From Rhodophyticola porphyridii (GTDB taxonomy: Bacteria > Pseudomonadota > Alphaproteobacteria > Rhodobacterales > Rhodobacteraceae): a stretch of 64,000 nucleotides of DNA. The stretch covers positions 1-64,000 of the forward strand of contig NZ_RCNT01000008.1 in assembly GCF_003688285.1 (NCBI RefSeq), read 5' to 3'. This document shows positions 38,700-54,789 of this stretch, in pieces. A program made the position numbers and the translations under genes. Under the pieces are notes generated by a model, which was given only the letters and a program-made list of their open reading frames with translations, had not been told where the DNA came from and made no database searches. Within the stretch, counting starts at the first letter, position 1; each line of letters starts with the position of its first letter.

Positions 38700-38771
38700 C
38701 TTAATCTACCCTTCTCGTTCCGGGTTTGCCCGCACTGACGCATGCACGTCGCGGCCCCGATCAAATACCTG

Positions 38772-38792
38772 CGCCCCGCGGTCGGGGCGTTT
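38772..38792. terminator. GC-rich hairpin between the universal stress gene and mrpA
   Basis: CGCCCCG (38772-38778) and CGGGGCG (38783-38789) flank a CGGT loop; TTT follows on the plus side. It lies 11 bases beyond the stop of the minus-strand stress-protein gene, so it probably ends that transcript before mrpA, although the T-run is on the opposite side. Confidence 0.45.
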
Positions 38793-38802
38793 CCGTCACG
38801 AT

Positions 38803-39768
38803 CTAGCTTGTCGCTTCCAATGTCACGGGCGACACGAACCCTTCGGGCTTCACTGCAATCACCGCGCAATCGACGCGGTGCAGGATCGTCTCGGCCGTGT
38901 TGCCCATGATGAAACCGCTGATACCGGTCCGGCCCACCGTTCCCATCACGATCAGATCCGGTTTGTGCGTTTCGGCAAATTCCGCAATCGCATCTCCGGG
39001 CAAACCCTTCAGCATATGGACATGGACCCGTTTCACTTGCGGATAATTCGCCAGCAGCGCGTTCAGCCGGGTCTTGGCGGCCTCTTTCTCCCGCTCGACC
39101 ATCCGGTCCACCTCGCCCTGATACTTCGAGGTATAGCGCCCGTGGCGCAAGGCATATTCCTCCTGCAGGCGCCAAGCATGGGCCACGTGGCAGGTGGCAT
39201 TGTCCCGCTCCGCCAGCGAGGTCGCGAGATCCAGGACAAGACGGTCAAGCTTGTCGCGCGCCTCATCGCCATGCGGCTCCGGATCAACGGTGGCAAGGAT
39301 GGTGTCGAAAACGCCGTCGCCGGGACCTTTCAGCATCCAGACGGGGCAAGGGCATTTCCGCAGCAGATGCATGTCTGGGCCTTTCAGCACGCCCTTGCCA
39401 TGGGCTGCGGCGGTCGCGCCCTTGATCACGATGTCATGGCCTTCGCGCAGGACCATCCGGATCACTTCCACGAACGCGCTGCCCTGCAGCACCGCCTCCG
39501 TCACCTCGACCCCCTCGGCGCGGGCGGTATCGGCCAGCCGCGTCAGCCGGTCCCGGTGATAGGCGATCACATCCTCTTCGATCTCGGTGCCGCGCCGCCC
39601 CTGCAACGCAGACAAAAGCCGCCCCAATTCGCCTGGCGCCGCGTCGATCACGTCAACCAGTGTCAGCGCCGCACCGTTCAGCTTGGCCAGATGCACGGCA
39701 CGCGCCAGCGCAACCTCGTGCAGGCTGTCTTCGGTCAAAACCGCAAGAATACTCCTGAATCTCTGCAT
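38803..39768 (-). CDS. Tandem universal stress protein
   Basis: 321 residues made of two UspA domains (about 1-150 and 155-300). The second ends with MGTVGRTGISGFIMGNTAETIL, the ATP-binding G-x2-G-x9-G-S/T pattern; the first is more diverged. The start at 39768 (MQRFRSIL) follows GGGAGAG; a longer reading to 39825 has no support. It is divergent from an OxyR-like LysR gene with a dyad between them, so that regulator may control it. Confidence 0.9.
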   Translation of the reverse strand: MQRFRSILAVLTEDSLHEVALARAVHLAKLNGAALTLVDVIDAAPGELGRLLSALQGRRGTEIEEDVIAYHRDRLTRLADTARAEGVEVTEAVLQGSAFVEVIRMVLREGHDIVIKGATAAAHGKGVLKGPDMHLLRKCPCPVWMLKGPGDGVFDTILATVDPEPHGDEARDKLDRLVLDLATSLAERDNATCHVAHAWRLQEEYALRHGRYTSKYQGEVDRMVEREKEAAKTRLNALLANYPQVKRVHVHMLKGLPGDAIAEFAETHKPDLIVMGTVGRTGISGFIMGNTAETILHRVDCAVIAVKPEGFVSPVTLEATS

Positions 39769-39824
39769 ACCAGCTCTCCCAGACCCGTTGCCGACCAGAT
39801 AATGCCCGCTTGCTGATTGATCCA

Positions 39825-39848
39825 ATCGAAACTAAAGTCGGTTTTGAT
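39825..39848. promoter_or_regulatory. Candidate LysR operator between the stress protein and OxyR-like genes
   Basis: ATCGAAAC, eight bases, then GTTTTGAT form a dyad with 7 of 8 arm bases matching. A further GATCAAAC half-site lies closer to the LysR start, giving the multi-site layout common for OxyR/LysR regulators. Confidence 0.5.
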
Positions 39849-39886
39849 AGATATTCCCGATCAAACAACCGTCCCCGGAACGTCCG

Positions 39887-40807
39887 ATGCCCACCCTGCA
39901 ACAGCTTCGCTATCTTGTGGCCATCGCCGATACGCTGCATTTCCACCGCGCGGCGGAGCGTGCCCATGTGACCCAGCCAACCCTGTCGGGCCAGTTGAAG
40001 GAGCTTGAGGCGAAGCTTGGGGTGCAGTTGGTCGAACGGTCCCGCGCGCGTGTGGTGCTGACACCCACGGGTGCCCAGATCGCGGCCCGCGCACGCTCCG
40101 TCCTGCGTGACGTGGCGGACATATCTGAGATCGCGAAACAGGGGCAGCGCCGTTTCAGCGGTACAATCCGCGTCGGCGTGGTGCAATCGCTCGGCTCCTA
40201 TCTTCTACCGCTGGTAATCCCCGAACTGCACGCCAGCCATCCGAACCTGAAACTCTATGTGCGCGAAGGGCTGGCCGCCGATCTTCTGGGCCGGATCGAC
40301 GATGGCGCGCTGGATCTGCTGTTTTTCCCGCTGCCGGCTGCCGGGCCCGATCTCAGAACCGTCCGCCTGTTCCGGGAACCGCTGCTGGTGGTGACCGCGA
40401 CTGATCATCCGCTCGCCGCAAGGACACAGGTCGCGCGAGACGATCTGCGCGGTGAGTCCATTCTGACACTGGAGCCCGGCCACCGGCTGCATGCTCAGGT
40501 CAAGCAGATCTGTGCCGATACCGGCGCCCGGCTCAGCCTCGATTACGAGGCGACCTCGCTTGATACGATCCGGCAGATGGTGGCCATGGGGTTGGGCATT
40601 TCGCTACTGCCGGCGCTCTATGTCCGTTCCGAGGTGACCCAGAACACGCTTGTCACCTCGCGGCCGCTGGCCGGGCCTGTGCCGTTCCGCTCCATCGGCA
40701 TGGTCTGGCGCAAGACCGCACCACGCAATGACGAGCTTGTCGAACTGGCGCAGATCCTGCGGCGCATTCTGCGCGCAAACGCACCCGAGGTGACGGTGAT
40801 CGACTGA
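39887..40807 (+). CDS. OxyR-like LysR regulator lacking the Cys199 equivalent
   Basis: 306 residues. The N-terminal HTH has LHFHRAAERAHVTQPTLSGQL. The effector domain resembles OxyR/CynR, and the segment ESILTLEPGHRLHAQVKQIC aligns with the OxyR redox loop. In E. coli OxyR that loop carries Cys199 and Cys208; here Arg200 replaces the first and Cys209 keeps the second. Disulfide-based peroxide sensing is therefore unlikely. It is divergent from the tandem stress-protein gene and followed by a second paralogue. Confidence 0.88.
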   Translation: MPTLQQLRYLVAIADTLHFHRAAERAHVTQPTLSGQLKELEAKLGVQLVERSRARVVLTPTGAQIAARARSVLRDVADISEIAKQGQRRFSGTIRVGVVQSLGSYLLPLVIPELHASHPNLKLYVREGLAADLLGRIDDGALDLLFFPLPAAGPDLRTVRLFREPLLVVTATDHPLAARTQVARDDLRGESILTLEPGHRLHAQVKQICADTGARLSLDYEATSLDTIRQMVAMGLGISLLPALYVRSEVTQNTLVTSRPLAGPVPFRSIGMVWRKTAPRNDELVELAQILRRILRANAPEVTVID

Positions 40808-41009
40808 CGGGGATTTAGTAGTCCGGGCGGTCCCGACCCAGCTGACGGCAGGGGCCAAATCGGAACCACCCGGATGATGACGCTGCGTGTCCGTGAATGC
40901 TGGAAGGGACTAAACGACCAGCAAGAGCAGTGTCATCGACAACAGACATGCGCGTGCCCACATGCCTGTCATGTCCAACTTCTTAGACACTCTCTTTTTG
41001 ACACAACCC

Positions 41010-41045
41010 TTGCAAATGGAAAAGTCAATCGTATATGAATATTCA
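41010..41045 (+). promoter_or_regulatory. Candidate promoter and palindrome of the second OxyR-like gene
   Basis: TTGCAA (41010-41015), 16 bases, then TATATG (41032-41037) fits a sigma-70-type promoter. A perfect 10-bp palindrome TGAATATTCA (41036-41045) overlaps the -10 side, a plausible autoregulatory site. The ATG is at 41071. Confidence 0.4.
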
Positions 41046-41070
41046 ATAGAAAAAAGCTAACGAATACCGC

Positions 41071-42009
41071 ATGCCCGTCTCTGTTCCTCCGCTCACGCTT
41101 CGGCAAATGCGCTACCTCGTGGCGCTGGAAGAAACCGCGCATTTTCGCGAGGCCGCGGAATCCTGCGGCATCTCCCAACCCTCCCTTTCCGTCCAGATCA
41201 AAACCCTGGAAGAGGCCCTTGGCCTGACCCTGGTGGAGCGCGGGCGCGGCCCTGTCCGGCTGACACTGGCCGGGCGCGAGGTTTCCGCGCGCTCGCGCGA
41301 CATTCTGGATGCAACCCAGGGCATCCTCGATCTGTCGGTTACCCTGAAATCGGGGCTGGGCGGCACCATCAGGCTTGGCACCTCGGCCACGTTGGGTCCC
41401 TATCTGATGCCCCATGTGGTGGGCGATCTGCACAAGTCCCACCCGGATCTGCGCCTGTATATCCGCGAAGCCGCCCCAAGGGAGTTGCTGCGCGAGCTGA
41501 ATGATGGCGTCCATGACCTGATCCTGACGCAATTGCCCGTCTCGGGCGCGGCGCTGACAACCTCACGTCTTTTCCGCGAGCCCTTGTCTGTCGCGCTGCC
41601 TGCGGATCATCCGCTGACCGAAAAGGCCATGCTGGACGGGCCCGATCTGACCGATCAGACGATCCTGTCCCTGTCGCCATCCTACACGCTGCACGACCAG
41701 ATCTCGGCGCTTTGCGTCGAAACCGGCGCGACGCTGTCACGGGATTATGAAGGCACATCGCTGGATGCGCTCCGCCAGATGGTGGCGATGGGTATGGGCG
41801 CGACATTCCTGCCGGCGCTTTACGTGAAATCCGAAATTGAAGGCCGGGCGCAGGATGTGATCGTCCGCCCGTTCCGGGGCCGCCGCTTCTCGCGCTCCAT
41901 AGGGCTGGTCTGGCGCTCGACAACCGGCGCCTCCGCGGCTTATGGCCGGCTGGCCCAGTTGATCCGTGAAACGGCCGGGCGGTTCCCCGATCTCGTCATT
42001 GAAGGGTGA
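41071..42009 (+). CDS. Second OxyR-like LysR regulator, also lacking the Cys199 equivalent
   Basis: 312 residues, clearly paralogous to the gene at 39887 (shared ALYVKSE/ALYVRSE and EGTSLDALRQMVAMG blocks). HTH: AHFREAAESCGISQPSLSVQI. The loop SLSPSYTLHDQISALC has Thr206 at the Cys199 position and Cys215 at the Cys208 position. It is preceded by an AT-rich 263-base gap containing a candidate promoter. Its target is unknown; the M19-like operon begins 212 bases downstream on the same strand and is a candidate. Confidence 0.88.
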   Translation: MPVSVPPLTLRQMRYLVALEETAHFREAAESCGISQPSLSVQIKTLEEALGLTLVERGRGPVRLTLAGREVSARSRDILDATQGILDLSVTLKSGLGGTIRLGTSATLGPYLMPHVVGDLHKSHPDLRLYIREAAPRELLRELNDGVHDLILTQLPVSGAALTTSRLFREPLSVALPADHPLTEKAMLDGPDLTDQTILSLSPSYTLHDQISALCVETGATLSRDYEGTSLDALRQMVAMGMGATFLPALYVKSEIEGRAQDVIVRPFRGRRFSRSIGLVWRSTTGASAAYGRLAQLIRETAGRFPDLVIEG

Positions 42010-42221
42010 GCTCCCCCTCTGACGCGCGCGGGCCCTCAGCCCCGATCCGTCATCGGACCACGGGAGATCATCGCGGGCGATAGGTTACAAAAAGCTCAAA
42101 ATCGATCTTTTTTCGCAACCTGTTTTGCGACCGCAACAGCGTACACAGGGGCATTTGGGCTTGCGCGACCCCGTGACTATTTGCTCAAGTCCGTCAACTT
42201 GACACAAGCCAGGCGGCACAC

Positions 42222-43202
42222 ATGATCTGCATCGACGCGCTGCAATATGCCAACTGGTCCGAAAAGGTGTTTCGCCAGATGCGCGACGGCGGGTTGGACT
42301 GCGTGCATGTGACCATCGCCTATCACGAGACATTTCGCGAGACCGTTCTCAGGATAGAGGAGTGGAACCGCCGGTTCGAAGCATTCCCCGACCTGATCCG
42401 GCTGGCCTATACCACCGCCGATATCCGCGCCGCCAAGGCAGAGGGCCGGACGGCGATCCTTTACGGTGCGCAAAACCCTTCCCCCATCGAAGACGATATC
42501 GGGCTGGTCGAGATCCTGCACCGCCTTGGTCTGCGGATCATGCAGCTTTCCTACAACAACCAAAGTCTCCTTGCGACCGGCGCCTATGAGGCCCAGGATC
42601 CGGGCCTGACCCGCATGGGCCGGGAGGTGGTGGCCGAGATGAACCGGGTAGGCATGGCTGTCGACATGTCCCATTCGGCAGAACGCTCCACCCTTGAGGC
42701 GATCGAGCGGTCGACCCGCCCCATCGCGATCACCCACGCCAACCCCCATGCATGGCATCCCGCGCTGCGCAACAAGTCCGACACGGTCCTGCGAGCGCTG
42801 ACGAGCAGTGGCGGAATGCTGGGATTTTCCCTTTACCCCCACCATCTGAAAGACGGCAGCGGCTGCAGTCTGGAGAGCTTCTGCAGGATGATCGCCGACA
42901 CCGCCGACCGATACGGCGCGGCCCATCTGGGGATCGGCTCCGATCTTTGCCAGGATCAGCCGGACAGCGTGGTGGAGTGGATGCGCACAGGCCGATGGAG
43001 CAAACGGATCGACTTCGGCGAAGGCTCCGCGGAGGCGCCCGGCTTTCCGCCGCAGCCTGCGTTTTTCCGCGACAACCGCGACTTTCCGCGACTGGCCGAG
43101 GGACTTGCGGCTGTCGGATTCGACAAATCCGAAATCGCTGGCATCATGGGCGGCAATTGGCTGGCTTATTTTGACCGGGTATTTGACGGTACCGATGGAT
43201 GA
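42222..43202 (+). CDS. Peptidase-M19 (membrane dipeptidase)-like protein with altered metal site
   Basis: 326 residues, a TIM barrel of the M19/renal dipeptidase family: GREVVAEMNRVGMAVDMSHS, AITHANPHAWHP and HLGIGSDLCQD align well. Of the five zinc ligands of renal dipeptidase (His20, Asp22, Glu125, His198, His219) the last two are present (VDMSH and ITHAN). The N-terminal H-x-D is replaced (CIDALQYANW), and the bridging Glu in the usual G-I-E-G is Gln here (GAQNPSPIEDD). So dipeptidase activity is doubtful, or it uses one metal. It overlaps the next gene by eight bases. Confidence 0.85.
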   Translation: MICIDALQYANWSEKVFRQMRDGGLDCVHVTIAYHETFRETVLRIEEWNRRFEAFPDLIRLAYTTADIRAAKAEGRTAILYGAQNPSPIEDDIGLVEILHRLGLRIMQLSYNNQSLLATGAYEAQDPGLTRMGREVVAEMNRVGMAVDMSHSAERSTLEAIERSTRPIAITHANPHAWHPALRNKSDTVLRALTSSGGMLGFSLYPHHLKDGSGCSLESFCRMIADTADRYGAAHLGIGSDLCQDQPDSVVEWMRTGRWSKRIDFGEGSAEAPGFPPQPAFFRDNRDFPRLAEGLAAVGFDKSEIAGIMGGNWLAYFDRVFDGTDG

Positions 43203-44895
43203 TCTGATCCAAAATTCTGCCCAGACGGAAGGCTTGCGTCCGCCCGCTCTGGTCATGCGGCTTGCCCGGATGGGCGCCAGCTTTCCCACCCGGCTGAGCT
43301 TTCTCAGGGTCCTGATGCGCCGGCTGAATGAAGAGCAGGTCAGGGTCACCCGGCGGTTGTGGGAGATGACACCCGATGGCTATGGGCGCGCGGTCTATAC
43401 GCTCACACTGGGCGGCCACAGCTATGCCCTTGTGGCGTTTTCCCATCATCTGCCGCCTGAGGACCGGACCGACCGGGTGATCGCCGAGCGGTGGGACACG
43501 ACCTATGCCCTGTTTGACGGGCTGCCCACGCCCGACGATCTAGACAGGCTGGCCGAAAACGTGCCCCTGCAGGAGGCGGGCCGCATGTCGCAGCGCGAAC
43601 TCGTGCTCAGCCGGGCCAACAGGAGCGTGCGTCTCTTCGAACATGTGGTCTCGGCCCTGGCTCGGGGGAACCAGCCGGAGCCCAAGATACTGGACCAGAC
43701 CGGCTATCTGATGCGCACCACGGCCGTTTACGGCAACGGAAAGTTCGGGCTGGCGGACCGCGCGGTGATTGCCGGGCGCCCCGGTCTGCAAGGGGCGTTT
43801 CAGGTCGAGATGCTGACCATCTGGCTGATCCGGCATTTCACCCATGATCTGGCCGATCATATCGCCCATGCCCGCGCCCCCGGAACCGCCGTTTCGCTTT
43901 CTGCGGATACCCGCCGCCGACTGGGGATCGGCAACGCGACCGGCCTTGGCATGGCGCCGTTTCTGGTGACCCACCCCGAACTGATCCATTCCTGGGTCCA
44001 TGCCCGCGAAACCGCTCTGGCGCGGGTCCGCGCCCTGCCGCGCGCCAGCGCCCAGGACCGCGCCGTATTTGCCGACGTCCTGAACCGCGCGATTGCCCAT
44101 GCCGCAAGCTGGTCGGTACCCGACCCGGTGCAGATGGATCACATCAGGGAGCTGCGCACCGATCTGGCCGGTATCCGGGCACTGACCGATAGCGGCAGCC
44201 TGCACGCACCCTACCCGTGGGAGGGGTTGCTGATCGCCGCGTCGGCCTGCGGGCTTGAAGCGCAGGAATGCCTGAACGCCCTTGTCATGGAACCTTACGG
44301 CGCGCTGGTCGACGATCTGGCCGATGAGATGCAGTGCGGCCTGCCGATGCGGCTGGACCCGTCGATGCGGCTCTCCGATCTGGCCGGGATCATCCGGCAT
44401 GAATATGCATGGGCGCTGAAGATCGATTTCGGACAGCCCGACGAAACCTATCAGTTCTGGTATGTGTCCGAGGACAAATCCGAACCTCGCCTTGGAGTGC
44501 GCTCCCGGGAACCGGGCGCGGAACTGGAAACCCGCCTGGACATCGCCCGACAGGTTCAGGAGTTGTCCCACGCCGTTCACCGGGCGCAACCCGCCGACAG
44601 TGTCGCGGCCTTTCTCATGCGCCACCCGGATCAGCGCCATATCGTCGAACGGGTGCAGACCATCGCCGCGCACCCCTATGGTGAAATCCGCGACAACCTG
44701 ATCGGGCGGGCGTGCCTGCCGATCGATCTGCTCCGCTTCAAACTGGCCTTTTTCGGGGCGACCCGGTTCGATCCGAAATCGGACCGCTGGACCCGGATCA
44801 CCCTCTGCCAGGGCGCGCCGCTGGCCGGGGAAATTGCACAGGCGGACCCCGATGAGTGGGCGTTCTGGGCGCCGCCCGACGCTGGTGCGGCATGA
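43195..44895 (+). CDS. Unassigned 566-residue protein in the M19/Ldh operon
   Basis: I recognise no family. The start at 43195 (MDDLIQNSAQ) overlaps the M19-like stop. The protein is soluble and mostly helical, with no signal peptide or membrane helix. Visible conserved-looking patches are YGNGKFGLADRA, RRLGIGNATGLGMAPFLVTH (glycine-rich, near residue 245), HELIHSW-like residues in HPELIHSWVHARE, and QFWYVSEDKSEPRLGVRSRE (near residue 425). Its stop overlaps the DUF3726 start (ATGA), so it is translated with the M19-like and DUF3726 proteins and probably shares their pathway. It may be a new enzyme or scaffold; no role is inferred beyond that. Confidence 0.8.
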   Translation: MDDLIQNSAQTEGLRPPALVMRLARMGASFPTRLSFLRVLMRRLNEEQVRVTRRLWEMTPDGYGRAVYTLTLGGHSYALVAFSHHLPPEDRTDRVIAERWDTTYALFDGLPTPDDLDRLAENVPLQEAGRMSQRELVLSRANRSVRLFEHVVSALARGNQPEPKILDQTGYLMRTTAVYGNGKFGLADRAVIAGRPGLQGAFQVEMLTIWLIRHFTHDLADHIAHARAPGTAVSLSADTRRRLGIGNATGLGMAPFLVTHPELIHSWVHARETALARVRALPRASAQDRAVFADVLNRAIAHAASWSVPDPVQMDHIRELRTDLAGIRALTDSGSLHAPYPWEGLLIAASACGLEAQECLNALVMEPYGALVDDLADEMQCGLPMRLDPSMRLSDLAGIIRHEYAWALKIDFGQPDETYQFWYVSEDKSEPRLGVRSREPGAELETRLDIARQVQELSHAVHRAQPADSVAAFLMRHPDQRHIVERVQTIAAHPYGEIRDNLIGRACLPIDLLRFKLAFFGATRFDPKSDRWTRITLCQGAPLAGEIAQADPDEWAFWAPPDAGAA

Positions 44896-45506
44896 TCACA
44901 CCATCGCTGAATGAAACCGCCAGACGGATGCGGGATGCCGCGCGCGGAGCGGGTTGGCCCGATGGAATCGCAACCGAGATCGGTCACGCCGCCGCATGGC
45001 TTGCAGCGCTGGGTGCCGACGGGGTTGGCGCCGCGCTGGCGGCCATCAAGGAGCCGTCGGGCCCCGTCGACGCGCGCCAGAACGGCGATGCGCTATGGCA
45101 TATCGGCCCGGCGCCGGTGGCCCTGGCAGGGCCCGCCGCGCTGGATCTGCTCTTCGCAGGCGAAGGCCCCGTCCATGTCACCTTCACCGATCACCGGACG
45201 CTTTTCCTGGGCCTGGCCGGATGGGCCTCGGCCCAGACAGGATACCGGATCAGGCTTGAAGGTGCGATCACGGTGCAGATCGAGGCCGGCCACCTGCTGA
45301 ATGCGCCCCATACCGACCCGACCCGCCGCGATCTGGTGTTGACGGCAAGACCCGGTCTTCCCGGCGCACCTCTGCCCTGCGGCCGACACGCGCCGTCTCC
45401 CGAAGCGTGGGAGGATGCGCTGCAACTTTCCAGCCGGACGCTGGTGCCGGCCACCGCCGCATCGCGGGCCTTTGGTGCCGGGGCCGGCCTCGGCGATGGC
45501 GATTGA
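44892..45506 (+). CDS. DUF3726 family protein
   Basis: 204 residues. The start ITPSLNETARRMRDAARGAGWPDGIATEIGHAAAWL fits the DUF3726 family pattern (SLNE ... A-R-G-A-G ... E-x-G-x-A-x-x-W-L). The function is unknown. It is coupled by four-base overlap to the 566-residue protein gene and followed by an Ldh-family oxidoreductase, an association that suggests a shared substrate. Confidence 0.72.
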   Translation: MITPSLNETARRMRDAARGAGWPDGIATEIGHAAAWLAALGADGVGAALAAIKEPSGPVDARQNGDALWHIGPAPVALAGPAALDLLFAGEGPVHVTFTDHRTLFLGLAGWASAQTGYRIRLEGAITVQIEAGHLLNAPHTDPTRRDLVLTARPGLPGAPLPCGRHAPSPEAWEDALQLSSRTLVPATAASRAFGAGAGLGDGD

Positions 45507-45528
45507 CCCCAAGATGAAAGAATGGCCC

Positions 45529-46527
45529 ATGAATGAAATCCTCGGCCTTGACGACCTGGAGGCGCTGGCCTGCGATGTGCTCAGGCGCGCCGGTGCCAGC
45601 GAGATGGCCGCCGCATCCGTGGCGCGCTCGACACGCGCGGCGGAGTGCGACGGCATTCGCAGCCACGGACTGATGTATATCCCGATCTACGCCGAACATC
45701 TGCGCTGCGGCAAGGTGGACGGGCAGGCCATGCCGCAGGTTACAGCGCCCAGACCGGGGGCCGTGCGTGTGGATGCCGGCGCGGGATTTGCCCACCCGGC
45801 GATAGACGCAGGCTTCGACCGGCTGATCGGCGCGGCGCGCAGCCAGGGTATCGCGGCGATGACGGTCTTCAACAGCTACAATTGCGGCGTACTCGGCCAT
45901 CATGCGGAAAGGATTGCCGAGGCTGGCCTTCTGGGATTGTGTTTCACGAATGCGCCGGCCTCCATCGCGCCCTGGGGGGGCAGGACCCCGGTGATCGGCA
46001 CCAACCCTTTCGCGCTTGGCGTTCCCGATGGCGCGGGCGGCGCAAAACTGGTCATTGACCAGTCCGCCAGCGCTATTGCCAAATCCGAGATCATGCTGCG
46101 GGCCCGCGAAGGACGCAGCATCGACGCGGGATGGGCCTTCGACGAAAGCGGCGCGCCCACCACCGATGCGGGCGCCGCGCTGAAGGGGTCGATGGCGCCC
46201 GCCGGAGGGTACAAGGGCTTCGGCGCGGGGCTGATGGTGGAAATCTTCGCCGCGTGTCTCGCGGGGGCGACCCTTGGCAAGGATGCCGCCCCGTTCTCGG
46301 GGCCCCTTGGCGGACCGCCCCGGACCGGGCAGTGCTTCATCGCGGTGGAGACCGATGCCCTGTCTGGCGGGGAGTTCGGCACGCGGCTGACCGATCTGGC
46401 CGCGGCGATTGCCGCGCAGGAGGGCGCGCGCCTGCCCGGGACCAGGCGCGCCGACGCACGGGTACGTATCGAGGCCGACGGGGTGGCCGTGCCGCAGGAT
46501 CTGCTGGAACGGATCATCAATTCATGA
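45529..46527 (+). CDS. Ldh-family (malate/L-lactate/ureidoglycolate-type) NAD(P)-dependent oxidoreductase
   Basis: About 332 residues from the ATG at 45529; in-frame ATGs at 45514 and 45496 are alternatives. Family blocks: DGIRSHGLMYIPIY, GVLGHHAERIAEAGL, PVIGTNPFALGVP and GGYKGFGAGLMVEI. This fold (Ldh_2) includes sulfolactate, ureidoglycolate, malate and delta-1-piperideine-2-carboxylate reductases. It would oxidise a 2-hydroxy acid or reduce a cyclic imine or keto acid. It sits between the DUF3726 gene and a LysR gene. Confidence 0.87.
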   Translation: MNEILGLDDLEALACDVLRRAGASEMAAASVARSTRAAECDGIRSHGLMYIPIYAEHLRCGKVDGQAMPQVTAPRPGAVRVDAGAGFAHPAIDAGFDRLIGAARSQGIAAMTVFNSYNCGVLGHHAERIAEAGLLGLCFTNAPASIAPWGGRTPVIGTNPFALGVPDGAGGAKLVIDQSASAIAKSEIMLRAREGRSIDAGWAFDESGAPTTDAGAALKGSMAPAGGYKGFGAGLMVEIFAACLAGATLGKDAAPFSGPLGGPPRTGQCFIAVETDALSGGEFGTRLTDLAAAIAAQEGARLPGTRRADARVRIEADGVAVPQDLLERIINS

Positions 46528-46543
46528 CCGGGGCTTTCTAGAG

Positions 46544-47509
46544 ATGCCCGGCAGCGCCCTCAAAGGTGTCTCCATCCGCGGGCTTGAGGTGTTCGAAGCC
46601 CTGGCCCGCACCGGATCCGTTGCGGGCGCCGCAGAACGGCTGGCGATGAGTGCGCCTGCGGTATCGCAGCAACTCAAGAACCTCGATGCGGCTCTTGGTG
46701 TGGAGCTGATCGACCATTCCCGCCGGCCGATGACGCTGACCCCGGCGGGGCGCTTGTTTCTCCGGCGGGCGGAGGCCGCCCTGTCCGCCCTGCGAATGGG
46801 GCAGCGGGACGTGGTGGCGCTGGATCTGTCCGATCTTTCCTCGCTGAGAATGGGCGTGATCGAGGATTTCGAGAATGAGGTGACACCGAACCTGGCGTCG
46901 CATCTTGCGGAGACGATGCAGAATTGCGCGTTCCGGCTGCAAACCGGGGCCAGCCACGCGATGCAGGCGCTGATCGCCGCGCGGGAGCTGGATATCGCGA
47001 TCTGCGCCGCGGGGCCGAGCGTGCCGCCGAACACCGTCACCCATCCACTGCTGAGAGATCCCTACATTCTGGCGGCCCCCCGCGGAACAGATGTTTCCGG
47101 CGGGCTGACGGCCTTGTCGGACCTCCCGTTTCTGCGGCGCGACATGAACCAGATCATGGGCAAGCAGATCGAGGAATATCTGGCCACCCATGGCTGGACC
47201 CCGCCGCAGCGCTTCGAAATGGACAGCAATCAATCGATCAGTGCACTGGTGGCCGGCGGCAAGGGCTGGACAATCACGACTCCGCTGAGCCTGCTGCGGG
47301 CGGGCCGGTTCGCGGACGGGATCGACGCGTTTCCTCTGCCGCAGGACGGGATCGCACGGCAGATCGTGCTTTATGCAAGCGGCGACTGGAGCGGCGACAT
47401 TCCCGGCCAGATCGCAAGCATCGCGCGGGAACTGATTGCCACCCATTTCACCACCCCCGGACTGGACGCGATGCCCTGGCTGGCAAGCGAGTTCGTGCTT
47501 CTGGACTGA
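46544..47509 (+). CDS. LysR-family regulator
   Basis: 321 residues. N-terminal HTH: GLEVFEALARTGSVAGAAERL then SAPAVSQQLKNLDAALGVEL. A substrate-binding domain follows. It lies 16 bases after the Ldh-family gene, on the same strand, and is convergent with the ABC importer operon. It probably controls the M19/Ldh operon and perhaps the importer. Confidence 0.9.
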   Translation: MPGSALKGVSIRGLEVFEALARTGSVAGAAERLAMSAPAVSQQLKNLDAALGVELIDHSRRPMTLTPAGRLFLRRAEAALSALRMGQRDVVALDLSDLSSLRMGVIEDFENEVTPNLASHLAETMQNCAFRLQTGASHAMQALIAARELDIAICAAGPSVPPNTVTHPLLRDPYILAAPRGTDVSGGLTALSDLPFLRRDMNQIMGKQIEEYLATHGWTPPQRFEMDSNQSISALVAGGKGWTITTPLSLLRAGRFADGIDAFPLPQDGIARQIVLYASGDWSGDIPGQIASIARELIATHFTTPGLDAMPWLASEFVLLD

Positions 47510-47595
47510 GCACGGCCGGGCGGGCGTTATGGAGGACGGCCCACCACCCCGGCAAACCAGAGCATAGGCTCACAATCGGCCTGCAAGGTCACACG

Positions 47596-48756
47596 CTATC
47601 CCTTGACCGCGCCGGCCGTCAGGCCCGATACGATCTGACGCTGAAAGATCATCACCAGAAGAAAGAGTGGGGCCGTGATCGACACAGCGGCGGCCACGGC
47701 CTCCACCTGATCGGTGGTCGTCGTTTCACGGTTGAAATACCCCGCGATGGCGGGAACCATCGTCTGGTTGGTCGCATCGAGCAACAGCGAGGTGACGAGA
47801 AAATCATTGTAGGCCAGAAGAAAACTAAACAGGCCCGTGGTGATCACACCCGGCCACATCACCGGCATGATCACCCAGCGGAACGCCTGAAAATGGGTGC
47901 AGCCATCGACGCGCGCCGCCTCGTCCAACTCGGCGGGGATGTTCTGGAAGAAGCTGCGCAGCATCCAGATGGTGAAGGGCTGATTGATCGAAACAAGAAC
48001 CGCGATGACCGCCATCGGCTGACCGTAGAGGGTGGGCGCATTGTCGCCAAGGATCGGGCGCAGCCATTCCGCGGAGTTGATGAAGACCGGCAGATAACCG
48101 GCCACCAGAACCGAATGCGGCAGCGCGCGGAACACCAGCGCGACGATCAGAAGCCAGAAGGCAAGGTTGGATCCGGATCGCGCGAGACCGTAGCCCGCAA
48201 GGGTGCCCACGGTCAGCGACACGATGACGACCCCCGTCGTGACCAAGAGTGAATTCAGGAAATTCCGATAGAACTCGTTTTCGACCCAGACAGAGTGATA
48301 GTGGACCGTTGTCAGGCCGAGAACCGGCTTTCCAAGTGGCCCGAGAACCGGGTTCAGCGCGCCGAGCACCACCGGCAGCACTCCGAGGAAGACCACGACG
48401 AAGGCCACGCCATAGGCCAGCCCGCCGATGATCCATCCGGCCCAGACCTGGCCGCCCGGTGACCACGCCGCGACCCGACCGGGCAGCCAGCGCATGGCGA
48501 ACCGCACCGTCAGATACAGCACCGCCAGACCGGCCGCGATATCGAGGATCGACAGGCCCTGCCCCGCCGCGCGGGTGGCCGGGCCAAGGATCACGTCAAG
48601 CGGGTTGGCGGCGAAGGCATCGACCGGCGCCTTGAAGCTCATTACCGCGATCCAGAAGATCGGGAAGGAGGCGATCAGGCACCAGAATGCAAGAAAGGCG
48701 GCCGAGCCCAGACGGAGCGAAACGGGTTGGCGCATCGCGCGGGGCCTGTCGGACAT
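47596..48756 (-). CDS. ABC importer permease, MalG-type
   Basis: 386 residues from the start at 48756, which overlaps the upstream permease stop (ATGA). Several membrane helices and the EAA loop ELDEAARVDGCTHFQAFRWVIMPVM define a carbohydrate-type binding-protein-dependent permease. There is an extra N-terminal segment with two added helices (about 60-150) compared with MalG, which is near 290 residues. It is the last gene of the importer operon; no ATPase follows. Confidence 0.9.
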   Translation of the reverse strand: MSDRPRAMRQPVSLRLGSAAFLAFWCLIASFPIFWIAVMSFKAPVDAFAANPLDVILGPATRAAGQGLSILDIAAGLAVLYLTVRFAMRWLPGRVAAWSPGGQVWAGWIIGGLAYGVAFVVVFLGVLPVVLGALNPVLGPLGKPVLGLTTVHYHSVWVENEFYRNFLNSLLVTTGVVIVSLTVGTLAGYGLARSGSNLAFWLLIVALVFRALPHSVLVAGYLPVFINSAEWLRPILGDNAPTLYGQPMAVIAVLVSINQPFTIWMLRSFFQNIPAELDEAARVDGCTHFQAFRWVIMPVMWPGVITTGLFSFLLAYNDFLVTSLLLDATNQTMVPAIAGYFNRETTTTDQVEAVAAAVSITAPLFLLVMIFQRQIVSGLTAGAVKG

Positions 48757-49808
48757 CAATGCGGCGCCCCCTTGTGATCGCGCCATGTCCGCCGTAGCAG
48801 CGGGATCAGCAGAATGACGATCCCGACCATCGTCAACATGGCCGAGGCCGAGGCCCGACTATAGGCCCGGTTGCCCGCATCGTCGGGTTGCAGGAAATCA
48901 TAGGTCAGCCATTGCAGGCTTATGACATGTGCCTGACTGGAAAAGCCGACGATCTCTTCGAACACGCGGTAGCTGTCCATCAGGTGGATGAGTGCGACGA
49001 ATACGATCAGCGGCATGAGATGGGGGATAATCACATAACGCAGACGATCCCATCTTGAGGCCCCGTCGATAATGGCGCTTTCCAGCGTGTCCCGGTTCAC
49101 CGTCTGCAGGCCCGCATAGAAGATAACGAAGGCGAAGGGCGCCACGTGCCAGACCCTGTAGAAGAGCATCATCAGCTCGATCGTCCAGGCCTGGGCGAAC
49201 AGGGCGAGATCGCGGTCCAGCCACATCTCAAGCGCCGATGTCAGGATACCATCGCCTATGAACAGCCAGCGGATCGAAAGTGCGCCGACCACCGGCGTGA
49301 TGATGAAGGGCAGAAGCGAGACGAAGATAACGGGCCCCTTGATCGACCGGGCGACGTTGTTCACCGCAAGCGCGATGGCCAGGCCAAAGCCGATGACAAG
49401 CGGCAACGTGACCAGCGTGAACATCAGCGTGAAACGCAAAGCCGCCCAGAAATCGATCTGCATCAGGGCGTTGTAGTCGAGATCCCTGACTGCGTCCCAG
49501 GCGCGTCCGGGCTCCAGCACACGGATATAGGACGTCAGACCGACCCATTCCGTGGTGGTGGTGATATTGCCGTTTTCATCGAGGATCGGGCGGGTCACAA
49601 GTTCGGTCGTGCAGGTCTGCGTCAGAAAGCCGGGGGTGCAGGTTTCGACCTCCACCTGTTCCACCACAGGCTGCGTGATCTGAAAGCTGCCCAGAAACAC
49701 GCCGACCAGCGGGGCGGCGATAAACAGCAGCATCAGGAAGACCGACGGCCCGACGAAGCCTGCAAATGTCCTGAAGTGCAAAGATCCGCCCCCCCTTTTG
49801 AGAGACAT
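48756..49808 (-). CDS. ABC importer permease, MalF-type
   Basis: 350 residues. The first helix (FVGPSVFLMLLFIAAPLVGVFLG) is followed by a periplasmic loop with a Cys pair (CTPGFLTQTCTTE) that could form a disulfide, then five further helices and the EAA loop ESAIIDGASRWDRLRYVIIPHL. It pairs with the MalG-type permease. The gene is 45 bases downstream of the binding-protein gene. Confidence 0.9.
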   Translation of the reverse strand: MSLKRGGGSLHFRTFAGFVGPSVFLMLLFIAAPLVGVFLGSFQITQPVVEQVEVETCTPGFLTQTCTTELVTRPILDENGNITTTTEWVGLTSYIRVLEPGRAWDAVRDLDYNALMQIDFWAALRFTLMFTLVTLPLVIGFGLAIALAVNNVARSIKGPVIFVSLLPFIITPVVGALSIRWLFIGDGILTSALEMWLDRDLALFAQAWTIELMMLFYRVWHVAPFAFVIFYAGLQTVNRDTLESAIIDGASRWDRLRYVIIPHLMPLIVFVALIHLMDSYRVFEEIVGFSSQAHVISLQWLTYDFLQPDDAGNRAYSRASASAMLTMVGIVILLIPLLRRTWRDHKGAPH

Positions 49809-49853
49809 TGGCGGCGGGCCGGGCGGTATTGCCGGCCCCGCCTTCGGCGTGTC

Positions 49854-51074
49854 CTAGTCCAGCAGCCCGGCTTCTTGAGCGGCGGTGATATAGGCCGCCT
49901 CCGCCGCGGCGAGCGCGTCCTCGGCTGTGACGTCGCCGGTGAAATAGGCGGGCAGTTCGTTGCCGAGCGCCGTATGCATCAGGCCCATCTGGGAGGTCGA
50001 CGGATAGGAGAGCGGCGCGGGTTCTGCGGTGGCTGTCGCAATCGCCCCCTCCGCAAGCGGCGACGGCTGATAGCCCGGAACCAGCCAGATGGCGTCGTCG
50101 TTGTTGGCCCTCACCATCTCCTCGTCGAGCCCCTCCATAGCGACGCGAAAGGCGTTTTCGGCCTCTTCGTTGCTGATATTGGCGGCGATCACGATCCCGT
50201 CCCACCACAACGTGGTGGCGGGTGAGCCACCGGGCATCGCCGTTGGCGCGGCTGCGGTGGCGACCAGACCGACGACCTGGCTTTCCTCTTCGATATTCAT
50301 GGCGGCGGCGCGGCTGGCCCAGAGATTTGCCATGGCGATCCGGCCCTGCTGGAACTGCTGCTGCACATAGGTGCTGTCGGAGACGAGATATTCCGGATCC
50401 ATGTACTCGGTCATCCGCATCATCATCTCCAGCGCCCGCACCCCGGCCTCGGTGTTGACATTGGGGGTACTGTCCTCGTTCACGAATGTGCCCCCGAACC
50501 CGAGGAACATGTTGTTGAAGTCCTGCGCGATGTTCCAACCGGCCCGCATCGTCGCGCCAAGCGGGTAGTCGACGACGCCGGCCTCCCGGATCACCTCGGC
50601 GGCGGCCAGAACCTCTTCCCAAGTGGTGGGAACGGGGATTCCGAGATCTTCGAGAATGTCGGCGCGATACATCAGATGCTGGGTATTCACCATCATCGCG
50701 ACGGCAAGGATTTCGCCGTTGATGCGGATCAGCTGATTGGAACTCAGATGCTGGCCGTATTCCGCGACCAGATCGTCAAGCGGGCGGATCGTGCCTTCGT
50801 TCATCAAAGGCGTGATCGTACCGTTCGACACACCGCCGACATGGTAGAGCGACGGGTTCGCGGCAAAGGCGGACGGTTGTTTGGTTCGGAATTCCTGATC
50901 GAGCTCGGCGCTGACATTGCCACATTCCGCCATCGCTTCGGTGACAGCATTCCAGGCTTCGAAGGCCGCGCTGAGAATCCGGACTTCGGTTTCGTTTTCA
51001 AAGGCGCAATCGGCCGTTGCGGTGCCGGCTATCAGGCTGAGTGCCCCGGCCAGCGCAAGTTTCTTGATCATCAT
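49854..51074 (-). CDS. Extracellular solute-binding protein, family 1
   Basis: 406 residues. Signal peptide 1-22 (MMIKKLALAGALSLIAGTATA), no lipobox, so it is soluble in the periplasm. The body has the family 1 layout, with YRADILEDLGIPVPTTWEEV and GRIAMANLW. Ligands of this family are sugars, polyols, and some other small organics. The start at 51074 is preceded by GGGAGAG. It is the first gene of the importer operon and divergent from the NTF2-like gene. Confidence 0.9.
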   Translation of the reverse strand: MMIKKLALAGALSLIAGTATADCAFENETEVRILSAAFEAWNAVTEAMAECGNVSAELDQEFRTKQPSAFAANPSLYHVGGVSNGTITPLMNEGTIRPLDDLVAEYGQHLSSNQLIRINGEILAVAMMVNTQHLMYRADILEDLGIPVPTTWEEVLAAAEVIREAGVVDYPLGATMRAGWNIAQDFNNMFLGFGGTFVNEDSTPNVNTEAGVRALEMMMRMTEYMDPEYLVSDSTYVQQQFQQGRIAMANLWASRAAAMNIEEESQVVGLVATAAAPTAMPGGSPATTLWWDGIVIAANISNEEAENAFRVAMEGLDEEMVRANNDDAIWLVPGYQPSPLAEGAIATATAEPAPLSYPSTSQMGLMHTALGNELPAYFTGDVTAEDALAAAEAAYITAAQEAGLLD

Positions 51075-51266
51075 CTTCAGGTCTCTCCCGGTTGGTATTC
51101 TCAAGTCCCCGCGCATGGCACAGATATCCTCCCATCTGCTTCGGCATCGGCGTTTCGCCCTTGCAGGCCGGCATCTTTCCGTTTGCATAGGTTTGCAAGA
51201 AAACGCTAGTTTCCCCTGCGGCAATTTGGCAAGGGTTTTCTCAAGGAATTGCCGGAGGCGCCCAAA

Positions 51267-52271
51267 GTGACCGATCCCAGAGCAGATATCCAAGGTTTTC
51301 TTGGCGGCCTGTTGCGATGCCGCGAGGCGGATCTCGAAGGCTACGCCGCCGCCTTTCTGGCAGAGGACGCGGTTTTCGACATAAGCGCGCCGGTCGAGCG
51401 GTTGCAGGGCCGCCGCGCCATTCTGTCGGGTTTTATCCGGCCGCTGCGCACGGCACTGACCCGTTTGAACAGACGAGATGAGCTGTTTATCGGCGGGCGC
51501 AACACGCGTGCAAATGGGGGAGACTGGATGGCCAGCCTGACCCATTACGTGGGCCGTTTTTCCGCGCCGCTTTTCGGCATTCTGCCAAGCGACCGGATGG
51601 TATTCCTGCGCGCCGGTGAGTTCTACCGGATCGAGGAAGGGCGGATCGTCGAGGCGCGGATCATCCTCGACCTGCTGGACCTGATGCGGCAGACCGGGCG
51701 TTTCCCGCTACCGTTTTCCTACGGGACGGAGATGACATTTCCGGGTCCCGTAACCCACGATGGTGTGATCCCGCCGGACCGGGAGACCGGCGCCCGCAGT
51801 CTGGCCATTGTTGAGGCGATGCTTGGGGCCCTGCATGACTATGACCCGACCACGTTCGGGTCGCAGTCGCAGACCGGCAGCGACGGGTTATGGGACGACG
51901 ACCTGATGTGGTACGGGCCGGGCGGCATCGGCTCCACGACCGGGTGGGACGGGTTCGTGGACCATCACCGCGCGTCCTTTCTGGGGGCTTTTCCCGACCG
52001 TAAGGGCGGCAATCACTACTGCAGGATCGGTGACGGGAGCTATGCGGCGGTCTCGGGCTGGCCGTCTATGACGATGACCCATCTGGGGCCCTATCTGGGC
52101 GTGGCGCCGACCGGCCGCGCAATGACTTTGCGAGTGATGGATTTCTATCGCTGCACCGACCGGAAGATCGCCGAAAACTGGGTCCTTCTGGACTATATCG
52201 ACCTTCTCAACCAGATGGGACGCGATCCGATCTCGGACTCAAACAGACTTGGCGGGCTTCCCGGCCAGTAA
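51267..52271 (+). CDS. Two-domain NTF2/SnoaL-like protein
   Basis: 334 residues made of two SnoaL/NTF2-like alpha+beta cone domains (about 10-150 and 175-325), both with RVMDFYR- or AGEFYRIEEGRIVEARIILD-type strands and a DDLMWYGPGGIG motif in the second. The start is GTG at 51267, chosen because CGGAGG lies eight bases upstream. Relatives are polyketide cyclases and isomerases or binding proteins. It is divergent from the solute-binding protein gene across 192 bases, so it probably works on the imported compound. Confidence 0.85.
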   Translation: MTDPRADIQGFLGGLLRCREADLEGYAAAFLAEDAVFDISAPVERLQGRRAILSGFIRPLRTALTRLNRRDELFIGGRNTRANGGDWMASLTHYVGRFSAPLFGILPSDRMVFLRAGEFYRIEEGRIVEARIILDLLDLMRQTGRFPLPFSYGTEMTFPGPVTHDGVIPPDRETGARSLAIVEAMLGALHDYDPTTFGSQSQTGSDGLWDDDLMWYGPGGIGSTTGWDGFVDHHRASFLGAFPDRKGGNHYCRIGDGSYAAVSGWPSMTMTHLGPYLGVAPTGRAMTLRVMDFYRCTDRKIAENWVLLDYIDLLNQMGRDPISDSNRLGGLPGQ

Positions 52272-52854
52272 GCCTGCCCCGGGGACCATCGGGCTCTTGC
52301 CGCAGACCGCAGAGGCGGCCAGAGCTTCATGACACTTCGCCGCACCGCCTGCCGGCATTGCGGAGCGACCGCCCCGACGGCTGGATGCCGTCGTAAACCC
52401 TGAAACGGGAAGCCCTTGATCCAACATCACAATTCCGGCATCTGTCAATAAATTTACACCAACTGAGCCGAAGTATGAAAATCTGTTACAGAAAAATCTT
52501 TTCCAGTCAGGAACATGTTCTGAATTTGCCGGATTCCTGTAATGTCCGAGCACCGGTTCCGCAGCGTAATGATCAATTCCTTAGGTGGTTCGGAGCCGGG
52601 CGGAGATACCCGATCTGAGATGACTGAGCCGGGGACGAACAGCCCCGACAACTTTGCCAGAACGGACACCGCGATACGGTTGGGGAGGCTAACCATTTCA
52701 TTCGGCCCGGCATGCCCGGGCTCCGGCCAACGGGAGCGCCTCGCCGCGCTGATCCGGCCGGGATTGCGCAACGCGTGGGGCCCGCCCGGACCCCGAAGGC
52801 TCAGCGCGTTGTGCCGATGGGAACCGAGCCGAGACTCGTTAAGGGAGAGAGACC
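52272..52854. other. Intergenic region carrying the acs promoter
   Basis: No convincing gene; a plus-strand frame at 52542-52913 runs into acs in another frame and lacks any motif. The stretch 52420-52560 is AT-rich and includes the palindrome GAACATGTTC. The ribosome binding site AAGGGAGAG of acs is at the right end. Confidence 0.5.
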
Positions 52855-54789
52855 TTGCCCAAAGATACGCCCGATTTGCTGCCCGACGCCCATATCGATG
52901 CGGCCCGCTATGAGGAGATGTACGCCGCCTCCGTCAATGACCCCGAAGGGTTCTGGGGTGAGCATGGCAAGCGGATCGACTGGATCAAGCCCTATACCAA
53001 GGTCAAGGATACCTCCTTCGCCCATGACAATGTGCATGTGAAATGGTTCGAGGATGGCACTCTGAACGTTTCGGCCAACTGCATCGACCGGCATCTGGAA
53101 AGCAGGGGCGACCAAACCGCGATCATCTTCGAGCCCGACGATCCGAATGACGAAGCCAAACACATCACCTACGAGCAACTCGCCAAGGAGGTCGGCACAT
53201 TCGCCAATGTGCTGAAGGAATGCGGCGTGCGGAAGGGTGACCGCGTGGTGCTCTATCTGCCGATGATCCCCGAGGCGGCCTATGCGATGCTGGCCTGCGC
53301 CCGGATCGGGGCGATCCATTCGATCGTGTTCGCGGGGTTCTCGCCGGATGCGCTTGCCGCCCGGGTCAACGGATCCGGCGCCAAGCTGGTGATTACCGCG
53401 GACGGCGCGCCGCGCGGCGGACGCGTGACCGAGCTGAAGGACAACGTCAACAAGGCGCTGCTGCACAATGTGCTGGGCACCAGGTGTCTCGTGGTCAAAC
53501 GCACCGGCGATCAGGTTGCCTGGGTCGGCGGGCGCGACATCTGGTATGACGATCTTGCCGAGCGGGTCAGCAGCGACTGCCCGCCGGAAGAGATGAACGC
53601 CGAGGATCCGCTTTTCATCCTCTACACTTCCGGCTCCACCGGACAGCCGAAGGGTGTGGTGCACACCACCGGCGGCTATCTCGTCTATGCCTCCATGACC
53701 CACGAGTACACGTTCGACTACAAGGATGGCGATGTATTCTGGTGCACGGCGGACGTGGGCTGGGTGACCGGGCACAGCTATATCGTCTATGGCCCGCTGG
53801 CCAACGGCGCCACGACCCTGATGTTCGAGGGCGTGCCGACCTACCCCGACGCGGGCCGGTTCTGGCAGGTCTGCGAAAAGCACAAGGTCAATCAGTTCTA
53901 CACCGCCCCCACCGCGATTCGCGCATTGATGGGCAAGGGCACCGGCTTTGTCGAAAAATACGACCTGAGCAGCCTGAAACTGCTTGGCACCGTGGGCGAG
54001 CCGATCAACCCCGAGGCCTGGAACTGGTACAACGAGAATGTCGGCAAGGGCACCTGCCCCATCGTCGACACATGGTGGCAGACTGAAACGGGCGGTCACA
54101 TGATGACCCCCCTGCCCGGCGCTCACACCTTGAAACCGGGGGCCGCGCAGAAGCCGTTTTTCGGGGTGCAGCCCTTGGTGCTGGACCCGACCTCGGGTGA
54201 GGTCGTCGAAGGAAACGGGGTCGAAGGCGTACTGGTGATCGCCGATAGCTGGCCGGGTCAGATGCGCACAGTCTATGGTGACCACGACCGTTTCGTGCAG
54301 ACCTACTTCAGCGATTACAAGGGCTATTACTTCTCGGGCGATGGCTGTCGCCGGGATGCGGATGGCGATTACTGGATCACGGGCCGTGTCGACGACGTGA
54401 TCAACGTGTCCGGCCACCGTATGGGCACCGCCGAGGTCGAAAGCGCGCTTGTCGCACATGAGACCGTATCTGAAGCCGCCGTCGTCGGTTATCCGCACCC
54501 GGTGAAGGGGCAGGGCATCTATTGCTACGTCACCCTGATGAATGATGAAACGCCGTCGGACGAGCTGAAGAAAACATTGTCGGACTGGGTTCGCCGCGAG
54601 ATCGGCCCGATAGCGAAACCGGATGTCATTCAATGGGCGCCGGGGCTGCCCAAGACCCGCTCGGGCAAGATCATGCGCCGCATCCTGCGCAAGATCGCGG
54701 AAAACGATTTCGACAGTCTTGGCGATACATCGACACTGGCCGACCCGTCCGTGGTCGACGAGCTGATCGAAAATCGCGAGAAGGGCTGA
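52855..54789 (+). CDS. acs: Acetyl-CoA synthetase (AMP-forming)
   Basis: 644 residues, full length for Acs. Motifs: [20 protein letters not shown] (A3), TWWQTETGG (A5), [20 protein letters not shown] (A7/A8), and [12 protein letters not shown] with the acetylatable catalytic Lys. The start is TTG at 52855, supported by AAGGGAGAG just upstream and by the expected family N-terminus ([16 protein letters not shown]). It converts acetate, ATP and CoA to acetyl-CoA, AMP and PPi. It is followed by adk, a symporter pair and the DUF294 protein, forming an acetate uptake and activation cluster. Confidence 0.95.

Follow-up and report, generated by a model that had tools for sequence, protein, structure and literature searches.

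Several bacterial routes for the breakdown of N-methylated and betaine-type ring compounds are known. In Acinetobacter, the trigonelline pathway (Tgn proteins) opens an N-methylpyridinium carboxylate, uses a flavin monooxygenase and oxidises the resulting semialdehyde. The routes for stachydrine and hydroxyproline betaine use Rieske demethylases and epimerases, and delta1-piperideine-2-carboxylate reductase / N-methyl-L-amino-acid dehydrogenase reduces N-methyl-imino acids. A 2026 study of homarine (N-methylpicolinate) reportedly describes an operon, homABCDER, that yields N-methylglutamate and glutamate and is present in Rhodobacterales, SAR11 and SAR116. PMC13390433 cites a homarine route published in 2026 that involves N-methylglutamate dehydrogenase and calls homarine a ubiquitous marine metabolite, and PMC9723723 and PMC9038784 list it as a diatom osmolyte. 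In the dgc operon of Pseudomonas, a dipeptidase-annotated gene is induced together with quaternary-amine genes (PMC8079746). SAR11_1302-1304 are annotated as betaine transporter and demethylation genes (PMC3160333). In this study, we compare these systems with a gene cluster of Rhodophyticola porphyridii built around an M19-fold protein, a 566-amino-acid (566-aa) protein and a DUF3726 protein, located in the first 64,000 nucleotides of contig NZ_RCNT01000008.1 (assembly GCF_003688285.1), in the following called the window.

We favour, with fair confidence, the interpretation of the cluster as a homarine catabolic operon or a close variant of it, by which the bacterium can probably use a methylated ring compound of algal origin as a nutrient. 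The gene set is common to many ocean and soil bacteria. The labels given to them in annotated records, 'membrane dipeptidase' and for the most part 'hypothetical protein', are misleading. The gene arrangement is more than chance, as the core is kept across families and the whole array of the window, up to a gene of the NTF2 family, is kept in a Rhodophyticola metagenome-assembled genome (MAG; locus L071).

Conserved core and complete operons

Four tightly packed genes on the plus strand form the first part of the cluster. They encode the M19-fold protein with a degenerate metal site (42222..43202; Pfam PF01244, 3.6e-74), the 566-aa protein, which has no assigned family (43195..44895; defined by its open reading frame (ORF), predicted structure and occurrence), the DUF3726 protein, predicted to have a truncated Ldh_2 fold (44892..45506; PF12525, 1.9e-6, 28.1 bits against a cut-off of 22.1), and an Ldh_2 oxidoreductase, referred to as Ldh (45529..46527; PF02615, 1e-90). 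For the latter the start at 45529 was chosen; a longer ORF from 45415 exists. The M19 and 566-aa genes overlap by 8 bases, the 566-aa and DUF3726 genes by 4, and a gap of 22 bases precedes Ldh.

Matches to the 566-aa protein at E<=1e-3 were found in 55 of the 385 genomes of a class sample and in 71 of the 149 genomes of a family sample, and the genome of R. porphyridii holds a single copy of the gene. A matching M19 protein, counted as present at E<=1e-90, occurs in 47 of the 55 genomes with the 566-aa protein and in 2 of the 330 others (Fisher p 2e-49, uncorrected for kinship). The eight genomes with the 566-aa protein only include two very weak matches, two distant relatives (33%) and one contig fragment; in a further one, G161, an M19 protein of 40% identity misses the cut-off. 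Five of the family matches (G507, G408, G484, G399 and G395) carry one internal TGA each, by decay or by sequence errors. Wider DNA was examined for 40 places out of 65 class match rows, revealing M19 in 36 (one of them a fragment) and Ldh in 16.

Gene neighbourhoods were compared in 80 loci from named genomes (in the following, named loci), the best of at least 586 stretches encoding a 566-aa relative among at least 593 stretches listed. M19 is encoded in the examined DNA of 62 of these named loci, in 54 of them at most 300 bases upstream of the 566-aa gene. An ORF with a DUF3726-type C-terminal motif follows the 566-aa gene in 74; of the remaining six, L138 is a tblastn match, four offer too little contig and L082 is ambiguous. 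Other genes are found less often near the core: Ldh in 15 loci (at least 65% identity in 10), an aldehyde dehydrogenase (ALDH) in 24 (at least 60% in 13), a divergent-type LysR regulator in 15 and a betaine importer in 12 (ProX and ProW in seven, BCCT in five). From these counts we regard M19, the 566-aa protein and DUF3726 as the core and the rest as additions. The preliminary description of this DNA had given the gene positions and spacing as above and had proposed uptake and conversion of a small molecule, with co-occurrence of the core proteins as a check. The ORF list agrees with the former, and the core proteins are indeed co-inherited, which bears out the latter.

Complete operons are found in several relatives. 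In Aminobacter (Amn_RS27735-27760), a LysR gene is divergent from ALDH-M19-566aa-DUF3726-Ldh and a betaine ATP-binding cassette (ABC) importer (ProXWV). In Phaeobacter inhibens DSM 17395 (PGA1_RS18825-18850, the 566-aa gene being PGA1_RS18830), LysR is divergent from ALDH-M19-BCCT-566aa-DUF3726; Ldh is missing in the gene table and was found by tblastn in an unannotated gap (57-60%), and four sarcosine-oxidase-type genes lie beyond the regulators. A genome of 1.4 Mb (L066), probably SAR11-like to judge by its size and composition, has the order ProX-ProW-ProV-ALDH-M19-566aa-DUF3726 with Ldh adjoining ProX. On a plasmid of Shinella zoogloeoides, Ldh (41% identity) and the betaine importer are on the opposite strand; an annotated dimethylsulfoniopropionate lyase (L152:24258-24863) lies about 11 kb from the core of this plasmid, separated from it by flavoprotein genes and the betaine importer. 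The SAR116 loci L077 and L089 contain the core, an Ldh of 32-33% identity and sarcosine-oxidase-type genes, and no close ALDH. Altogether, ALDH, M19 and Ldh, each with at least 60% identity, stand beside the 566-aa gene in eight named loci. Six of these eight include ProX and ProW; L103 is without such an importer. C-N hydrolase-type genes also recur beside the core (L068:7314-8486, L099:6186-7418, L149:7668-8909 and L072:7759-8976), with an M24 creatinase-like neighbour in L068 (by Pfam), L099 and L149 (both by eye) and an M20 neighbour in L072 (by Pfam).

The proteins of the core and Ldh

M19 dipeptidases have a dinuclear zinc site made of a His-x-Asp pair, a bridging Glu, two His and an Asp. 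We compared 100 M19 sequences (98 distinct), comprising the protein of the window and 99 near full-length ones out of 103 found in 126 loci. The protein belongs to the Peptidase_M19 fold by its Pfam match, in which the first 32 profile positions are unmatched, and for all solved M19 chains except 2i5g the alignment begins only at residue 35 or beyond. The His-x-Asp pair is replaced by Asp5-x-Leu7, and the Glu of the aligned dipeptidases by Gln84, in 100 of 100 sequences. None of the sequences departs from His172, Asp241 or Arg183, and 99 retain His151. The dinuclear zinc site is thus incomplete, three of the five dipeptidase metal ligands being lost, which makes the protein hardly an ordinary dipeptidase, and we rejected this function for it. 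Its nearest solved structure, 2i5g (labelled 'amidohydrolase'), shares the Gln.

The 566-aa protein gave no match above noise in Pfam, NCBIfam or, by profile at E<=1, PDB sequences. In Pfam, the single sequence has one sub-threshold match (0.069), and the aligned family of 41 members has 13 scattered weak ones (best 0.0094), none common to more than two members. L124 and L135 (stop codons) and L144 were left out of the 566-aa alignment, and alignment A2 covers 40 of the 80 named loci. The predicted model is confident (pLDDT 89.4, pTM 0.90), and Foldseek retrieved no PDB chain at E<=0.001 (best 0.25, probability 0.06), which is no proof of a new fold. The least ordered internal part of the model is loop 181-187, in which Gly182, Lys183 and Gly185 are invariant. 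We propose a ring-opening or dearomatising enzyme.

The family PF12525 is matched by 32 of 35 aligned DUF3726 sequences. For the predicted model (pLDDT 89.1), Foldseek ranks 1 to 27 are all Ldh_2 structures, with E from 4e-4 to 0.15 (two at E<=0.001) and template modelling (TM) scores of 0.38-0.48 on the query, so the match to this fold is partial. Between the DUF3726 profile and the operon's own Ldh, profile similarity is weak (hhalign probability 31%, E 5e-4, 58 N-terminal columns). In the archaeon Natrinema, the DUF3726 slot holds a protein of 317 amino acids with an Ldh_2 match just under the cut-off (PF02615, 4.8e-9), no match among PDB sequences and a weak match to the DUF3726 profile (probability 4%). 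Its locus on plasmid pNVE500 (L162:9115-14814) consists of the 566-aa relative, the Ldh-like protein, and then a BCCT and an NTF2-family gene. From these comparisons, DUF3726 probably has a shortened version of the Ldh fold. Even in loci without a nearby Ldh it accompanies the 566-aa protein, and for this reason we propose it as the partner of the latter. A literature search on DUF3726 found no paper. The preliminary description had counted at least two proteins without known function, which holds for the 566-aa and DUF3726 proteins, and had suggested structure prediction, which yielded Ldh_2-fold matches for DUF3726 and a confident model with no fold match in PDB for the 566-aa protein.

The closest PDB relative of the window's Ldh is 1wtj/2cwf/2cwh (186 bits, E 8e-54; next 122 bits), the delta1-piperideine-2-carboxylate reductase of Pseudomonas syringae. 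From this relationship we propose that Ldh may use NAD(P)H to reduce a 2-imino acid, in line with the imine-type oxidoreductase supposed earlier.

Seven relatives of the 566-aa protein, with identities of about 30%, branch off as a clade of their own (support 1.0). On pSymB of Sinorhizobium meliloti (L161:8139-16438; the 566-aa relative lies at 397150-398808 in strain 1021) and in Alloyangia (L166), an IclR gene is followed by the genes for the 566-aa relative, a small protein, M19 and an ABC importer. By eye the importer is of polyamine type, and its binding protein in Sinorhizobium belongs to SBP_bac_8. In Alloyangia the cluster further includes a Rid protein and an FAD oxidoreductase, and genes for GabT and a semialdehyde dehydrogenase lie nearby. 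The cluster of Neorhizobium (L167) is similar, with no M19 in the gene table. The small Sinorhizobium protein has no Pfam match and matches the DUF3726 profile weakly (probability 11%), so that the sister-clade partner is no more than a possible homologue. A literature search by putative Sinorhizobium locus tags gave one mention of a transporter, of unclear relation to the locus. The trigonelline genes of Sinorhizobium are reported to lie on the other megaplasmid and not on pSymB; trigonelline as the substrate of the sister clade is a guess. Taking both clades together, we put forward only tentatively that the 566-aa protein represents a new fold class of ring openers for N-methylpyridinium (or similar) carboxylates, working in a module with a truncated, Ldh-fold DUF3726 and an M19 protein whose dinuclear zinc site has given way to other chemistry, with homarine as the substrate of the main clade and another compound, perhaps the homarine isomer trigonelline, as that of the sister clade.

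The surroundings of the core in the window

A LysR gene, a candidate regulator, lies on the same strand as M19 about 210 bases ahead of it (41071..42009, plus strand, by ORF). Its counterpart in L071 is 93% identical and has the same place, and among the other 79 named loci a match is found in L146 only (36%, elsewhere). This gene is preceded by a further LysR at 39887-40807, OxyR-like by eye; the L071 gene at the place of the latter is 48% identical to the LysR of 41071. Directly downstream of Ldh, another LysR gene follows on the same strand (46544..47509, start chosen; Pfam HTH_1 and LysR_substrate; 74% identity in L071).

An importer operon on the minus strand, running from 51089 to 47596, is convergent with this LysR gene and divergent from the NTF2-like gene, as described before on the basis of the ORF list. 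It encodes a sugar-family extracellular solute-binding protein (SBP_bac_1; 49854..51089; PF01547, 1.8e-23; 83% in L071), a UgpA-like permease (48756..49808; PF00528; 85%) and a MalG-like permease (47596..48786; PF00528; 77%). In NCBIfam, the UgpA match has 49.5 bits, below the cut-off of 335, and the MalG match 77.7 bits, far under the cut-off of 261. The operon has no ATPase gene; four MalK-type matches at E<=1e-60 exist in the genome, all on other contigs. The last gene encodes a tandem NTF2/SnoaL-like protein (51249..52271, plus strand; PF07366 in two stretches; 75% in L071). An Rfam scan of 38000-54000 gave no match.

Across the array, the counterparts in L071 are 54-93% identical per gene. 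The importer and the NTF2 gene are together kept in L071 only among the 80 named loci, and we therefore rejected them as part of the conserved unit, contrary to the earlier assignment of both to the same system. In the tree of the 566-aa protein, window and L071 form a pair; the clade of 64 to which they belong (support 0.917) includes members from complete operons, and the window's Ldh is 53-70% identical to the Ldh of loci with ALDH and core.

Homarine, alternative substrates and known systems

Homarine fits the enzyme set: if its ring were cleaved and C6 lost, an N-methyl-imino C5 semialdehyde would remain, from which Ldh and ALDH would then make N-methylglutamate. In the order of steps that we infer, the compound would be imported, here by the sugar-family ABC importer with a shared ATPase, and the 566-aa protein with its DUF3726 partner would open or dearomatise the N-methylpyridinium ring. 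The M19-fold protein might then cleave the opened product at a C-N bond, with release of formate as one possibility. Ldh would reduce the N-methyl-imino acid formed in this way, like the related delta1-piperideine-2-carboxylate reductase / N-methyl-L-amino-acid dehydrogenase, an ALDH (an unlinked one in this genome) would oxidise the C5 semialdehyde to N-methylglutamate, and N-methylglutamate dehydrogenase would yield glutamate. For the operon ALDHs of L046 and L066, the highest scores are those of the models for 2-oxoglutarate-semialdehyde and 2,5-dioxovalerate dehydrogenases, at 475-504 bits and below the cut-offs of 750-770, which suggests a C5 semialdehyde. The genome of R. porphyridii has two full-length SoxA-type genes (43% and 40%); whether such genes encode N-methylglutamate dehydrogenase or sarcosine oxidase is not distinguished by the NCBIfam models applied. 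Literature searches for hom gene names or context, or for the gene names of the cluster, found no gene list, and the main text, as far as accessible, of PMC11306105 and PMC12478193 (methylated compounds, Phaeobacter and Ruegeria) does not contain 'dipeptidase' or 'homarine'. The earlier view that the enzyme set matches no nameable pathway may have been overtaken by the homarine operon of 2026, a likely match.

Several points weigh against homarine. Most named relatives keep only the M19-566aa-DUF3726 core nearby, so that the core may serve other substrates, and M19 itself is absent from the examined DNA of 18 of the 80 loci (three of which start at most 820 bases from a contig end). The 566-aa protein has no recognisable cofactor site. 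Compared with the five enzymes of complete relatives, the window cluster has the other four enzyme genes and a LysR and no ALDH; the best ALDH elsewhere in the genome, of 53% identity, adjoins a peptide-type importer and has dihydrodipicolinate-synthase-like and enoyl-CoA-hydratase-like neighbours, named by eye. A sugar-family importer without its own ATPase takes the place of the betaine importer. Peptide-type ABC ATPases occur in seven named loci (L141, L083, L085, L086, L093, L106 and L108; oligo_HPY in the one tested, L106), and in L141, a complete operon, the ATPase gene (L141:1-813) is right behind the divergent LysR. A SoxA-type gene is commoner in genomes with the 566-aa gene (47 of 55) than in others (91 of 330), which speaks for homarine, but the correlation is confounded by kinship and genome size; likewise, the sarcosine-oxidase-type genes near the core are in favour, but they are found in only five named loci, two of them SAR116 and one at 24%. 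Finally, identity with homABCDER, as judged from the reported five genes plus regulator and the reported taxon spread of hom, is no more than probable.

Among the alternatives, degradation of some other betaine, of an N-methylated or cyclic amino acid (such as proline betaine, the betaine of pipecolate or an N-methylproline), via like imine, semialdehyde and N-methyl-amino-acid steps holds up best, and we consider it unlikely. The betaine importers, the DpkA-like Ldh, the ALDH and the sarcosine-oxidase-type neighbours fit any such compound, and dimethylglycine-dehydrogenase-like matches (22-27% identity) occur in seven named loci; however, the Rieske demethylases and epimerases of the known routes are not in the conserved core, and the 566-aa protein would be left without a clear role. 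Less probable still is that the copy in the window has been re-used for another substrate, with the same core and with the sugar-family importer, the extra LysR and the SnoaL-like gene replacing ALDH and the betaine importer. The special arrangement common to window and L071, their pairing in the tree and the missing linked ALDH are in keeping with re-use, but the Ldh is close to its counterparts in loci that combine ALDH with the core, and complete operons supply relatives of the 566-aa protein within the same clade. Uptake and hydrolysis of a peptide or cyclic dipeptide with M19 as dipeptidase, the peptide-like substrate envisaged in the preliminary description, is weakened to the point of being highly improbable: the PF01244 match, the tight operon beside an importer, the peptide-type ATPases and the position of the best ALDH match speak for it, but three dipeptidase ligands are absent in all 100 M19 sequences compared, the ATPases of six of the seven loci lie several kb away past other genes with no complete-operon ALDH or Ldh near, six of the eight complete loci have betaine ABC importers, and Ldh and ALDH would be left unexplained.

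With homarine as the preferred substrate, the cluster can be set beside the known systems. With the M19 membrane dipeptidase family (renal dipeptidase) the M19-fold protein has the fold, His151, His172 and Asp241 in common, and it is without the His-x-Asp and bridging Glu of that family. The M19-like gene of the Pseudomonas dgc operon stands with DgcAB and is likened to it by annotation; presumably it belongs to the same clade. The likeness lies in a dipeptidase-annotated gene within an N-methyl amine catabolic operon (PMC8079746). Ldh has its closest solved relative in the P. syringae reductase named above. The Acinetobacter trigonelline pathway resembles the proposed route in opening the ring of an N-methylpyridinium carboxylate and in semialdehyde oxidation, whereas it uses a flavin monooxygenase, of which there is none in the core here. 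If the assignment to homarine is correct, this comparison directs attention to the attack on the ring and to the protein responsible for it. A concrete target is the conserved enzyme for which no fold is known, paired with the remnant of an Ldh fold and with an M19 protein that has lost most of the dipeptidase metal site. The operon homABCDER reportedly has five genes plus a regulator and is spread over Rhodobacterales, SAR116 and SAR11, as is the gene set described here. A link to N-methylglutamate dehydrogenase, cited for the homarine route in PMC13390433, is proposed here as well. Compared with homABCDER, the window is without ALDH and betaine importer; its importer is of the sugar family, LysR genes flank the cluster on both sides, and a gene for a SnoaL-like protein is present; if the homarine assignment is true, it represents a variant operon with a different importer.

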